Positions 42,311 to 46,172 of a DNA stretch of 64,000 nt are shown here, one piece after another. The stretch spans positions 372,001 to 436,000 of the forward strand of contig NZ_CP023860.1 of assembly GCF_003326015.1 (NCBI RefSeq). The letters run 5' to 3'. The notes beneath the pieces were generated by a model that searched no databases, had not been told where the DNA came from, and worked only from the letters and a program-made list of their open reading frames with translations. The translations under genes and the position numbers were made by a program. The stretch comes from Candidatus Thioglobus sp. NP1. GTDB lineage: Bacteria; Pseudomonadota; Gammaproteobacteria; PS1; Pseudothioglobaceae. Position 1 is the first letter of the stretch. Every line of letters starts with the position of its first letter.

Positions 42311-43234
42311 ATGCCAATTCATGATGCTCCAAGACTTATAACAGTTGATGAATTTTCGATTGGACAAAGGTTAGATAATTATTTAGTCAAACAGCTTAAG
42401 GGTGTTCCTAAGTCTCATATTTATAGAATCATCAGAAAGGGTGAGGTACGGGTTAATAAAGGAAGAAAGAAAGCTGACTATAGGCTTATTTCTGAGGATA
42501 TTATCCGCATTCCACCAATAAGAACCTCAATAACTGTGGCTGTAAAACCTTCAGATAATTTGCTGGAGACGCTGAATAATTCAATACTGTTTGAGGATAA
42601 AGGCTTGCTTATTATTAATAAGCCTCATGGAATGGCTGTGCATGGTGGAAGTGGTGTTACTATTGGTATTATTGAAGCTCTTAAGAGTGAATATAAAGAG
42701 CCAATTGAGCTTGTTCATCGACTAGATAGAGCTACTTCTGGCTGTCTAATTCTGGCCAAAAAACGCTCTGTCTTGAAAGCTTTACATGAGCAACTCTTTA
42801 ATCATCAATTAGAGAAGCGATATATTGCCCTTGTTAAAAACAGTTGGAGTAAAAAAAGACATACGGTTGACGCTCCAATTTATCAAAATTCAAGAAATAG
42901 CGTTATAGATTCAAAAGGTAAAGAATCATTAAGTCATTTTCATCCCCTAAAAAATTTTCAAATTGATGACTACAGTGCTTCATTGGTTGATGTAGTTATA
43001 GAGACTGGGAGGACCCATCAAATAAGAGTGCATGCTAAATATGCAGAACATCCGTTAGCACAGGATAATAAATATGGAGACCCTAACTTTGATAAATTGA
43101 TGAAGAAAAAAGGGTTAAATCGACTTTTTTTACATGCTAAAGCAATTACATTTACCAATCCAATGACAAATGAGATCCAAAAAATATCTGCACCATTACC
43201 AGATGATCTTGAGAAGTTCTTAGCCAAATTATGA
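42311..43234 (+). CDS. rluC: 23S rRNA pseudouridine synthase, RluC type
   Basis: This 307-residue RluA-superfamily enzyme has an N-terminal S4 RNA-binding domain (RLDNYLVKQLKGVPKSHIYRIIRKGEVRVN split over residues 20-50) and the catalytic motif LVHRLDRATSGCLILAK, whose Asp (about residue 140) attacks the uridine ring. The S4 domain and length favour RluC, which modifies U955, U2504 and U2580 in E. coli; RluD is the alternative. It overlaps ubiA by four bases. Confidence 0.88.
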   Translation: MPIHDAPRLITVDEFSIGQRLDNYLVKQLKGVPKSHIYRIIRKGEVRVNKGRKKADYRLISEDIIRIPPIRTSITVAVKPSDNLLETLNNSILFEDKGLLIINKPHGMAVHGGSGVTIGIIEALKSEYKEPIELVHRLDRATSGCLILAKKRSVLKALHEQLFNHQLEKRYIALVKNSWSKKRHTVDAPIYQNSRNSVIDSKGKESLSHFHPLKNFQIDDYSASLVDVVIETGRTHQIRVHAKYAEHPLAQDNKYGDPNFDKLMKKKGLNRLFLHAKAITFTNPMTNEIQKISAPLPDDLEKFLAKL

Positions 43235-44073
43235 ATGCATATATAAGCCTTATGCGTTTGAATAAACCTATAGGCATACTCTTACTCTTATGGCCTACCT
43301 ACTGGGCATTATTCTTAAGTGCAAATGGTTGGCCAGATATAGACTTATTAGTGATCTTTACTCTGGGAGTAATTATCATGAGAACTGCAGGATGTATTAT
43401 CAATGATTATGCAGATCGCAATATTGATAAGCATATTGCTCGAACTCAGGACCGTCCATTAACAACAGGGGAGATTTCAACAAAAAAAGCTCTATTACTT
43501 TTTTCATTACTAATAGTTATTGCATTTTGCTTAGTTTTATTAACAAATACATTAACTGTTCAGTTGTCAATTGTAGCTGTTGCTTTAGCAACTATATATC
43601 CCTTTACAAAACGATGGACTCATTTACCCCAGCTAGTTTTAGGGGCGGCATTTGGCATTAGTGTTCCTATGGCATTTAGTGCACAAACAGGCTTAATTCC
43701 TTACTCTGCAGGATTAGTCTTTCTTGCAACAATAGTATGGACATTAATTTATGATACTCTGTATGCCATGGCAGATCGTGATGAGGATTTAAAGATAGGA
43801 GTAAAGTCAACTGCTATTCTTTTTGCAAAATATGATCAAATTGCTATCACTTTATTGCAAATATTGTTAATTATTATCTTTATTGCAATTGGTAAAACAT
43901 TCAATTTAGACTTAATTTATTACTTTTCTTTGATAATTATTACGTTTTTTATGATTTATCATCAGTTCTTAATGAAAAAACGACAAAAAAGTGCGTATTT
44001 TAAGGCTTTTATTAACAATAATTTCATTGGTATCAGTGCCTTCGCAGGTATCTTGTTTTCTGTAATTAGTTAG
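43231..44073 (+). CDS. ubiA: 4-hydroxybenzoate polyprenyltransferase
   Basis: This 280-residue inner-membrane prenyltransferase attaches the polyprenyl tail to 4-hydroxybenzoate in ubiquinone synthesis. The first Asp-rich site is RTAGCIINDYADRNID (about residues 52-67), and ARTQDRPLTTGEIS follows as in UbiA; the second Asp-rich site is DTLYAMADRDED (about 177-188). About eight hydrophobic helices are visible. It overlaps rluC (ATGA). It implies an aerobic or microaerobic respiratory chain using ubiquinone. Confidence 0.93.
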   Translation: MNAYISLMRLNKPIGILLLLWPTYWALFLSANGWPDIDLLVIFTLGVIIMRTAGCIINDYADRNIDKHIARTQDRPLTTGEISTKKALLLFSLLIVIAFCLVLLTNTLTVQLSIVAVALATIYPFTKRWTHLPQLVLGAAFGISVPMAFSAQTGLIPYSAGLVFLATIVWTLIYDTLYAMADRDEDLKIGVKSTAILFAKYDQIAITLLQILLIIIFIAIGKTFNLDLIYYFSLIIITFFMIYHQFLMKKRQKSAYFKAFINNNFIGISAFAGILFSVIS

Positions 44074-44157
44074 CTTACTTAATGTTGAATTTTTGCAACA
44101 TTTAGCTAGATTCTAGTCATTTTTGCTTAATTATTGTCTTTTTTTCATCAAGAAAAC

Positions 44158-44184
44158 TTGACACAGTGATTTTGATACTATAAA
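44158..44184 (+). promoter_or_regulatory. Promoter of small membrane protein copy 1
   Basis: A perfect TTGACA (44158-44163) and TATAAA (44179-44184) are separated by 15 bases; an extended -10 of the form TGnTACTAT overlaps. The block is conserved before all three copies, which supports function. A leader hairpin, AATCAGC (44194-44200) with GCTGGTT (44207-44213), follows. Confidence 0.75.
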
Positions 44185-44239
44185 AAGTCCACCAATCAGC
44201 AAATATGCTGGTTATTTTTAAAATTAATGGAGAGAAAAT

Positions 44240-44458
44240 ATGTTAAGCAATGTAACTGGTTGGATTAAAAAGTTAACTGAAGCAGGTGTCGGTCTTGTAG
44301 CACTTGCAGTAGTTGTTCAAGTAATATTTGGCTCAAGCGCTTCATTCCTACCTGGTGATGTAGTAGCTAGGCTTACAGATATGATTGGCACACTTGGTGG
44401 TGCTGGCTTAGTTGGTTTAATTACAGCAGGATTGTTGTACCAAATCTTTTCTAAGTAA
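44240..44458 (+). CDS. Small two-helix membrane protein, copy 1 of 3 (unknown function)
   Basis: I do not recognise this 72-residue protein. It begins with a short amphipathic stretch (MLSNVTGWIKKLTEAG), followed by a hydrophobic helix at about 17-31, a connecting segment with FLPGDVVARLTDMIG (about 36-50) and a second Gly-rich hydrophobic helix at about 53-70 ending in a basic tail. No signal cleavage site or Cys is present. A consensus promoter, strong ribosome site and terminator of its own suggest a very abundant product. It differs from copy 3 at three residues and from copy 2 at 21. Possible roles include a membrane-organising or pore-forming peptide; nothing in the context decides. Confidence 0.85.
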   Translation: MLSNVTGWIKKLTEAGVGLVALAVVVQVIFGSSASFLPGDVVARLTDMIGTLGGAGLVGLITAGLLYQIFSK

Positions 44459-44480
44459 ACGTTTCATATTAACTCAATAA

Positions 44481-44506
44481 AAAACCCGCCATTAGGCGGG
44501 TTTTTT
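44481..44506 (+). terminator. Terminator of small membrane protein copy 1
   Basis: AAAACCCGCC (44481-44490) pairs with GGCGGGTTTT (44495-44504) around ATTA, with a T-tract continuing to 44506. This is a very strong intrinsic terminator, essentially identical to that of copy 3. Confidence 0.95.
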
Positions 44507-44561
44507 ATTAACTAGACGAAGGGCTATTAAGTAATTTTTAGCAATTCACAACAGAGAAAAC

Positions 44562-44588
44562 TTGACACACTGATTTTGATACTATAAA
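44562..44588 (+). promoter_or_regulatory. Promoter of small membrane protein copy 2
   Basis: TTGACA (44562-44567), 15 bases, TATAAA (44583-44588), differing from copies 1 and 3 by a single base in the spacer. The leader hairpin is kept as AATCAG (44598-44603) with CTGGTT (44612-44617), one pair shorter and with a different loop. Confidence 0.75.
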
Positions 44589-44642
44589 AAGTTTATCAAT
44601 CAGCAGAGAAACTGGTTATCTTAAAATTAATGGAGAGAAAAT

Positions 44643-44861
44643 ATGTTGGATAATGTAATTGGTTGGGTAAAAAAATTAACAGAAGTTGGTGTAAGTATTA
44701 TTGCGCTCGCAGTTGTTGTTCAAATAATTTTTGGTAGTCAAGCTGCATTCCTACCTGGTGATGTAATCGCTAGACTTACAGATATAATTATGGGACTTGG
44801 TTCTGCAAACTTAGTTGGCTTAATTGCTGTTGCTTTGTTATATAAAATCTTTACTAAGTAA
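44643..44861 (+). CDS. Small two-helix membrane protein, copy 2 of 3 (unknown function)
   Basis: This 72-residue paralogue of the flanking genes is identical to copy 1 at about 51 of 72 positions. Changes are mostly conservative (Val/Ile, Ala/Ser), while the invariant parts are the GW-KKLTE start, AVVVQ-IFGS, FLPGDV-ARLTD and LVGLI--LLY-IF. That pattern indicates purifying selection on a real protein rather than a decaying duplicate. The second helix has fewer glycines than in copies 1 and 3 (MGLGSANLVGLIAVALL), so its packing may differ. Its transcription unit is complete. Confidence 0.85.
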   Translation: MLDNVIGWVKKLTEVGVSIIALAVVVQIIFGSQAAFLPGDVIARLTDIIMGLGSANLVGLIAVALLYKIFTK

Positions 44862-44879
44862 TACATATTTACTCAATAA

Positions 44880-44904
44880 AAACCCGCTTTATTGCGGGTT
44901 TTTT
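44880..44904 (+). terminator. Terminator of small membrane protein copy 2
   Basis: AAACCCGC (44880-44887) pairs with GCGGGTTT (44894-44901) around a 6-base loop and is followed by T residues to 44904. The design is the same as in copies 1 and 3 but the loop sequence differs. Confidence 0.93.
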
Positions 44905-44992
44905 ACTATTTAAATGAAATATTATTAATAGCCTTAAACCATATGATATAAGGGTTCAAAGGTATTTTGATGCATTTTTAAGCTTTGAAAAC

Positions 44993-45019
44993 TTGACACA
45001 GTGATTTTGATACTATAAA
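44993..45019 (+). promoter_or_regulatory. Promoter of small membrane protein copy 3
   Basis: TTGACA (44993-44998), 15 bases, TATAAA (45014-45019), with the leader hairpin AATCAGC (45029-45035) with GCTGGTT (45042-45048). The block matches copy 1 almost base for base. Confidence 0.75.
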
Positions 45020-45074
45020 AAGTGCATTAATCAGCAAATATGCTGGTTATTTTTAAAATTAATGGAGAGAAAAT

Positions 45075-45293
45075 ATGTTAAGCAATGTAACTGGTTGGAT
45101 TAAAAAGTTAACTGAAGCAGGTGTCGGTCTTGTAGCACTTGCAGTAGTTGTTCAAGTAATATTTGGCTCAAGCGCTTCATTTCTTCCTGGTGATGTGGTC
45201 GCTAGATTAACGGATATGATTGGTGCCCTTGGTGGTGCTGGCTTAGTTGGTTTAATTACAGCAGGATTGTTGTACCAAATCTTCAAAAGGTAA
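45075..45293 (+). CDS. Small two-helix membrane protein, copy 3 of 3 (unknown function)
   Basis: This 72-residue near-duplicate of copy 1 differs by Thr51 to Ala and a C-terminal Ser-Lys to Lys-Arg. The first 109 bases of the two genes are identical. A central stretch of about 55 bases then carries many mostly synonymous differences, after which identity resumes to the last codons and into the shared 3' region. Such a patchwork points to gene conversion between copies. The start, ribosome site and membrane topology are as for copy 1. Confidence 0.85.
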   Translation: MLSNVTGWIKKLTEAGVGLVALAVVVQVIFGSSASFLPGDVVARLTDMIGALGGAGLVGLITAGLLYQIFKR

Positions 45294-45313
45294 ACGTTTC
45301 ATATTAACTCAAT

Positions 45314-45341
45314 AAAAAACCCGCCATTAGGCGGGTTTTTT
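45314..45341 (+). terminator. Terminator of small membrane protein copy 3
   Basis: AAAAAACCCGCC ending at 45325 pairs with GGCGGGTTTTTT from 45330 around ATTA. Because it is flanked by A and T tracts on both sides it should also stop dapD transcripts coming from the other strand, whose gene ends at 45357. Confidence 0.95.
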
Positions 45342-45356
45342 AATACCTGAATAAAT

Positions 45357-46172
45357 TTAAATGCCTCTTAGCAGCTCATTAATTCCAACCTTAGACCTAG
45401 TTTTAGCATCAACCTGTTTGACTATAACTGCGCAATAGAGTGAGTAGCTTCCATCTGAGGATGGGAGGTTGCCTGATACTACTACGGAACCTGCAGGAAT
45501 TCTGCCATAACTCACCTCACCCGTTAATCGATTGAAAATCTTTGTTGATTGTCCAATATAGACACCCATAGATATGACAGCACCCTCTTCAACGATTACA
45601 CCTTCCACTACCTCTGACCTTGCACCTATAAAACAATTGTCTTCAATAATAGTAGGGTTTGCCTGTAATGGCTCAAGAACACCACCGATTCCAACACCAC
45701 CGGATAGATGAACATCTTTACCAATTTGAGCACAGGAGCCAACAGTAGCCCAGGTATCCACCATTGTTCCAGAATCGACATAAGCACCAATATTTACATA
45801 AGACGGCATTAAAACAGTATTTTTAGCAATATATGATCCACGTCTTGCTGTTGCTGGTGGAACTACTCTAACTCCAGCAGCTTCAAACTCTTCACTAGAA
45901 GTATTAGCAAACTTAGAGGGAACTTTGTCATAATACTGAGTGAATCCTCCAGATAAGGGTGTATTGTCTTCAAGTCTAAAGGACAGTAATACTGCTTTTT
46001 TTAACCACTCATTAACCCGCCAATCTCCTACACCTTGTCTTTCAGCCACTCTAGCTTTCCCAGAGTCAAGTAAGTAAATTGCCTCATTCACAGCATCCTT
46101 AACTTCTTTAGTTGCAGAATCTGGATTCAAATTAGCACGATCTTCGAAAGCTGCTTCAATAATATCTTTCAT
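45357..46172 (-). CDS. dapD: 2,3,4,5-tetrahydropyridine-2,6-dicarboxylate N-succinyltransferase
   Basis: This 271-residue trimeric enzyme belongs to the succinylase route to diaminopimelate and lysine. An N-terminal helical domain ([29 protein letters not shown]) is followed by left-handed beta-helix hexapeptide repeats, including [29 protein letters not shown] and [21 protein letters not shown] (each split here), all typical of DapD. It is a single gene convergent with the small-protein array. Confidence 0.96.

Follow-up and report, generated by a model that had tools for sequence, protein, structure and literature searches.

A tandem array encoding a predicted two-helix membrane protein in Candidatus Thioglobus sp. 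NP1 belongs to an undescribed family found in bacteria and marine T4-like phages

Results

Organization of the three units

The window, that is, the whole analysed stretch of 64,000 nucleotides from Candidatus Thioglobus sp. NP1, contains three complete direct-repeat units at positions 44152-45342, with spacings of 403 and 432 nt. Each unit comprises a TTGACA element, a leader hairpin, the ribosome site GGAGAG, a 72-codon ORF and a GC-rich terminator with a T-run, and all elements of the three tandem self-contained units described in the original prediction were thus located. All three genes lie on the forward strand in the ORF list. Copy 1 (44240..44458, type 1) encodes a protein of 72 aa which, according to the fold prediction, is a two-helix membrane protein. 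Copy 2 (44643..44861, 72 aa) is a type 2 paralogue whose protein was 71% identical to that of copy 1, in agreement with the earlier estimate, and copy 3 (45075..45293, 72 aa) was about 97% identical to copy 1. The dS between copies 1 and 3 was low (0.22) compared with that between copies 1 and 2 (0.66), indicating that copy 3 arose by a recent duplication of the whole copy 1 unit. Judged from these distances, copies 1 and 2 are the older pair, and copy 3 is younger and derived from copy 1.

Promoter-like elements precede the genes on the same strand at 44158..44184, 44562..44588 and 44993..45019, and the block of copy 1 (TTGACA, 15 nt, TATAAA) is shared by the three copies and by congeners. 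The spacer of 15 nt in all three units is short, and the promoters were therefore missed by a standard promoter scan with spacers of 16-18 nt. Leader hairpins follow on the forward strand at 44194..44213 (copy 1, succeeded by a U-rich stretch) and 44598..44617 (copy 2), both recognized from the sequence and from covariation, and at 45028..45049 (copy 3), found by the element scan. Among 41 Thioglobaceae leaders, 86% of cells were paired, compared with at most 48% when the partner was slid, and double-sided changes were present in 39 cells against 20 in shuffles; on this covariation, the leader hairpin is real across Thioglobaceae. Together with its U-run, the hairpin scored terminator-like on its own (44194-44213 and 45028-45049), and it may stabilize the 5' end or act in attenuation. 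An Rfam search of the leader gave only matches below the gathering score, which were located on the terminators.

The intrinsic terminators, also on the forward strand, are a 15-bp perfect inverted repeat at 44476..44509 for copy 1 (repeat search), 44878..44905 for copy 2 (repeat search and terminator scan) and 45311..45342 for copy 3 (sequence and repeat search). Only that of copy 2 was reported by the terminator scan; those of copies 1 and 3 were not listed, probably because the T-run pairs within the palindrome. The log-odds of codon usage in the copies leaned towards ribosomal-protein usage (p 0.006-0.06), and the CAI was not raised. From their promoter, leader and terminator signals, the three units may be highly expressed.

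Conservation of the locus in Thioglobaceae

The array is flanked upstream by a gene which we take to encode a UbiA-like prenyltransferase (43231..44073, forward strand) and downstream by one presumably encoding a DapD-like succinyltransferase (45357..46172, reverse strand). These neighbours, recognized from the ORF list and synteny, mark a conserved slot in Thioglobaceae with the order ubiA, one to three copies (usually one or two) and dapD. As far as the stretches reached, ubiA and/or dapD adjoined the gene in 43 of the 43 Thioglobaceae loci read. The nearest named relative was Candidatus Pseudothioglobus aerophilus (97%).

Order-wide, 49 of 83 genomes were positive. Counting array copies in related genomes, as the original prediction had proposed, gave 25 positives among the 29 genomes of the window's genus, with two copies in 20 genomes, one in 4 and three in NP1. 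Three of the four negative genomes were checked, and all three also gave no full dapD match, so that the absence of the gene probably reflects a missing contig (assembly gap). The dN/dS of orthologs was about 0.05-0.25; by this measure they evolve under purifying selection, as the original prediction had held for the protein sequence. Conservation of the slot and the ORF across Thioglobaceae, this dN/dS and the covariation of the leader hairpin show that the units are functional and not chance arrangements. The comparison of loci indicates that the gene is core and vertically inherited in most Thioglobaceae, with a tandem duplication in the genus and one more in NP1.

Two genera of Thioglobaceae were nearly without the gene, with 0 of 12 genomes positive in g2 and 1 of 12 in g4. 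The 12 genomes of g2 are complete or near-complete and small. In the g2 and g4 genomes examined, dapD was present, as was ubiA wherever the stretch reached it, and the slot between them was empty (17 nt in L234) or held other decayed DNA. An apparently degraded unrelated ORF replaces the family gene in the slot of genus g2 at L238:966-1505 and L236:700-1505. These two genera are possibly symbionts, given their small closed genomes; the Bathymodiolus symbiont (L054) retains the gene. Stop-interrupted copies were seen in two genomes of one Thioglobaceae genus (G089:C98:8040-8240 and G093:C208:6764-6949), which may represent ongoing decay.

Protein structure and database searches

AlphaFold2 with 55 diverse relatives (pLDDT 87) predicted helices at residues 2-30, 41-54 (amphipathic) and 57-71, with the motif F-[LI]-[GP]-G-D in the predicted loop between helices; this accords with the 72-residue two-helix membrane protein originally predicted. 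When only close relatives were supplied, the model was poor (pLDDT 66). Residues Q27, F30, F36 and G59 were invariant among 51 diverse members, and the charge pattern is compatible with insertion into the inner membrane as a hairpin of N-in/C-in topology. Residues 4-29 and 44-70 of copy 1 are alike, each being an amphipathic stretch with a helix (hhalign score 16.6, probability 21%). This score exceeded all 100 column permutations (maximum 14.8) and is suggestive only of an internal duplication relating the N-terminal and C-terminal halves of the protein.

No family member passed the curated cut-offs of Pfam or NCBIfam, the family had no match in PHROGs or PADLOC, and the predicted fold of this very short protein found no match with Foldseek in the PDB or BFVD. 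The best PDB profile match was the coat protein of inovirus PH75 (E 0.14), which was lost with a wider profile. Weak matches to TrbL/VirB6 and type IV secretion families were also obtained (0.017 in Pfam and 1.4e-4 in NCBIfam at best); those in Pfam were below the curated cut-offs, and the one in NCBIfam appeared in few members. By these searches the family is undescribed, being missing from every family library tested, and the first reading of the sequence had likewise recognized none.

Relatives in other bacteria

Genome contigs scanned with a profile yielded relatives in Nitrospinaceae, a Nitrospira MAG, Reyranella/Rhodospirillales, Opitutales and others. Most distant bacterial carriers have two diverged copies, usually in tandem, in unrelated gene contexts; the tandem pair is the usual form in Nitrospinaceae, Nitrospira and the Reyranella-like alphaproteobacteria. 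In a sample of the phylum, 1 of 398 genomes was positive, namely that of the window. The bacterial distribution is thus patchy, and the gene, absent from most sampled bacteria and from two sister Thioglobaceae genera, is by its distribution not essential in general.

Relatives in marine viruses

A single-sequence query of IMG/VR gave no match, and neither did tblastn against INPHARED phages and PLSDB plasmids. A wider profile found at least 555 relatives in IMG/VR, the best with 50-57% identity over the full length. The neighbourhoods of 80 contigs or loci out of these at least 555 matches were read, and each of the 80 carried a single copy. Neighbours matched to PHROGs included tail sheath, tail tube, head closure, single-strand DNA-binding protein, terminase and ribonucleotide reductase (NrdB), and a structural, gp32-type or phrog_407 neighbour lay within the stretch read in 56 of the 80; some contexts include nrdA/nrdB. 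From this gene content, most of the 80 viral contigs read are marine T4-like phages.

The position of the gene in phages is variable and includes structural modules, and in some cases the gene and the tail genes lie on different strands. A terminator followed the phage gene in 58% of cases, compared with 10% for other genes of the same contigs (p = 5e-15). A few phage copies have a perfect TTGACA-16-TATAAT promoter; over all phage copies, promoter quality did not exceed that of other genes preceded by long gaps, and the leader hairpin was not clearly stronger than in controls (p = 0.07). The bacterial units and the terminator-bounded phage copies together indicate that the self-contained unit is a family feature in bacteria and in many phages.

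Discussion

In this study, we conclude that the three units represent a real, unnamed family that is widespread in hosts and phages and ordinary in architecture. Its novelty to the libraries, the two helices, the self-contained units and the selection on the protein, all put forward in the original prediction, were borne out by the analysis, but the antimicrobial-like role was not. Beyond that prediction, the third copy stems from a recent duplication that covered a whole unit, the array is a conserved ubiA/dapD locus, and the family is common to distant bacteria and marine T4-like phages.

For the role of the protein, we tentatively favour, at somewhat less than even confidence, an abundant oligomerizing hairpin of the inner membrane that would keep the energized membrane intact, encoded by a core host gene which was acquired by phages, much as hli was by cyanophages. 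On this proposal, the protein would enter the inner membrane as an N-in/C-in hairpin, and the hairpins would assemble at high copy number into homo- or hetero-oligomers, which may stabilize or seal the energized membrane, the least supported step. With a promoter, a leader hairpin and a terminator of its own, each unit would give a strong constitutive dosage, and tandem duplication would make it higher or more diverse. In phages carrying the captured gene, the membrane of the infected cell would stay energized during virion production, comparable with the use of hli and psbA by cyanophages.

Hli/HLIP proteins are small membrane-helix proteins, encoded by multi-copy genes of cyanobacteria and also by T4-like cyanophages, and host function is maintained by them during infection. 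The present family resembles them in being a core host gene that is also carried by lytic-type (T4-like) phages, but neither Pfam nor NCBIfam gave a sequence match to them, and the protein here has two helices. No member had a Pfam match to the chlorophyll-binding LHC-type family, which argues against HLIP membership, and to our knowledge the hosts are non-photosynthetic, so that a chlorophyll role is not expected. The phage copies are also reminiscent of morons, as they form autonomous, often terminator-bounded units in the midst of phage genes, in some cases on the other strand. The family differs from morons, however, in that it also occupies a fixed bacterial chromosomal locus, and only some phage copies clearly have their own strong sigma-70 promoter. 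The variable positions, including structural modules, would be compatible with a moron of any function, which speaks against the favoured role.

The main rival explanation, to which we give a real but clearly minor chance, is superinfection exclusion, in which an inner-membrane protein stops incoming phage DNA; phages would use it against competitors, and marine bacteria would have fixed a constitutive chromosomal version as a barrier. T4 Imm and other membrane proteins of superinfection exclusion are short, have two predicted membrane helices and occur on T4-like phages. The present protein shares all three characters, and small two-helix membrane proteins of T4-like phages resemble Imm in general shape. 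A stand-alone, often terminator-bounded cassette at variable phage positions would fit this role, as would the near absence from genera g2 and g4, where dapD was kept and the slot was empty or decayed. Nevertheless, defence genes are usually strain-variable, and this gene belongs to the core genome, keeps its place and evolves under purifying selection; no Pfam match to an immunity or defence family was obtained at E up to 1, nor any PADLOC match; and the Bathymodiolus symbiont still carries the gene. Its presence as a core bacterial gene further distinguishes the family from T4 Imm. A more specific form, which we consider improbable, is that several unrelated lineages of marine bacteria possess the protein as a constitutive core-genome barrier to phage DNA entry or depolarization, and that it was taken up by T4-like phages for superinfection exclusion. 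If this were true, one weapon would be common to hosts and viruses.

The other explanations are much weaker than either membrane maintenance or exclusion. A lysis protein of the holin or pinholin type that came from phages and was retained in bacteria with a different function would be compatible with the size and the two hydrophobic helices, which resemble those of small holins, and holin-like or terminase genes are close to the family gene in some phages (L196). This is very unlikely, however, as there was no match among PHROG holins, the phage positions are not bound to one lysis cassette, and two to three units with constitutive-looking promoters would kill a free-living cell if they encoded a working holin. 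A filament subunit, whether a pilin of the conjugation type (VirB2/TraA) or a major coat protein of the inovirus type, has been largely refuted. The PH75 profile match and the TrbL/VirB6 and type IV secretion matches amount to a weak hydrophobic-helix similarity, but the former did not persist with a wider profile and the latter stayed under curated cut-offs or were confined to few members. Moreover, no VirB4 was found in the genome, no type IV secretion, Zot or replication genes adjoin the array, inovirus genes are lacking, and the viral carriers are T4-like phages rather than inoviruses. The secreted antimicrobial or bacteriocin-like peptide that was first suggested fits a small helical protein with amphipathic segments but is the least probable of all, given a core, vertically inherited and conserved gene without signs of diversifying selection, no leader peptide and no adjacent exporter, immunity or processing gene, and a family that phages carry too.

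A family with at least 555 viral matches, core in abundant sulfur oxidizers of the ocean and present in Nitrospinaceae, is missing from every family library tested. Whether the protein serves membrane maintenance or phage exclusion, it marks an exchange between hosts and viruses in abundant marine bacteria, and it is a small, testable gene. In a tree of 72 columns, the viral rows needed 4 label changes, with weak support, and one viral group was sister to Nitrospinaceae; a viral origin of the family is possible from this topology.

Two contigs binned with bacteria, L090 (Gammaproteobacteria SP335) and L088 (Rhodobacteraceae Water_Bin34), contain NrdA/NrdB and other phage-type genes; they were rejected as bacterial loci and appear to be T4-like phage contigs inside bacterial MAGs. 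On T4-like phage contigs, permuted (two-piece) tmRNA genes were observed 0.1-0.5 kb downstream of the family gene (L195:5705-5922, L188:5532-5711, L157:5412-5590, L210:5361-5554 and L090:8287-8489), suggesting SAR11 or another alphaproteobacterial host ancestry of these phages. A permuted tmRNA is known from the T4-like marine phage Melnitz and related pelagimyophages (PMC9004378).
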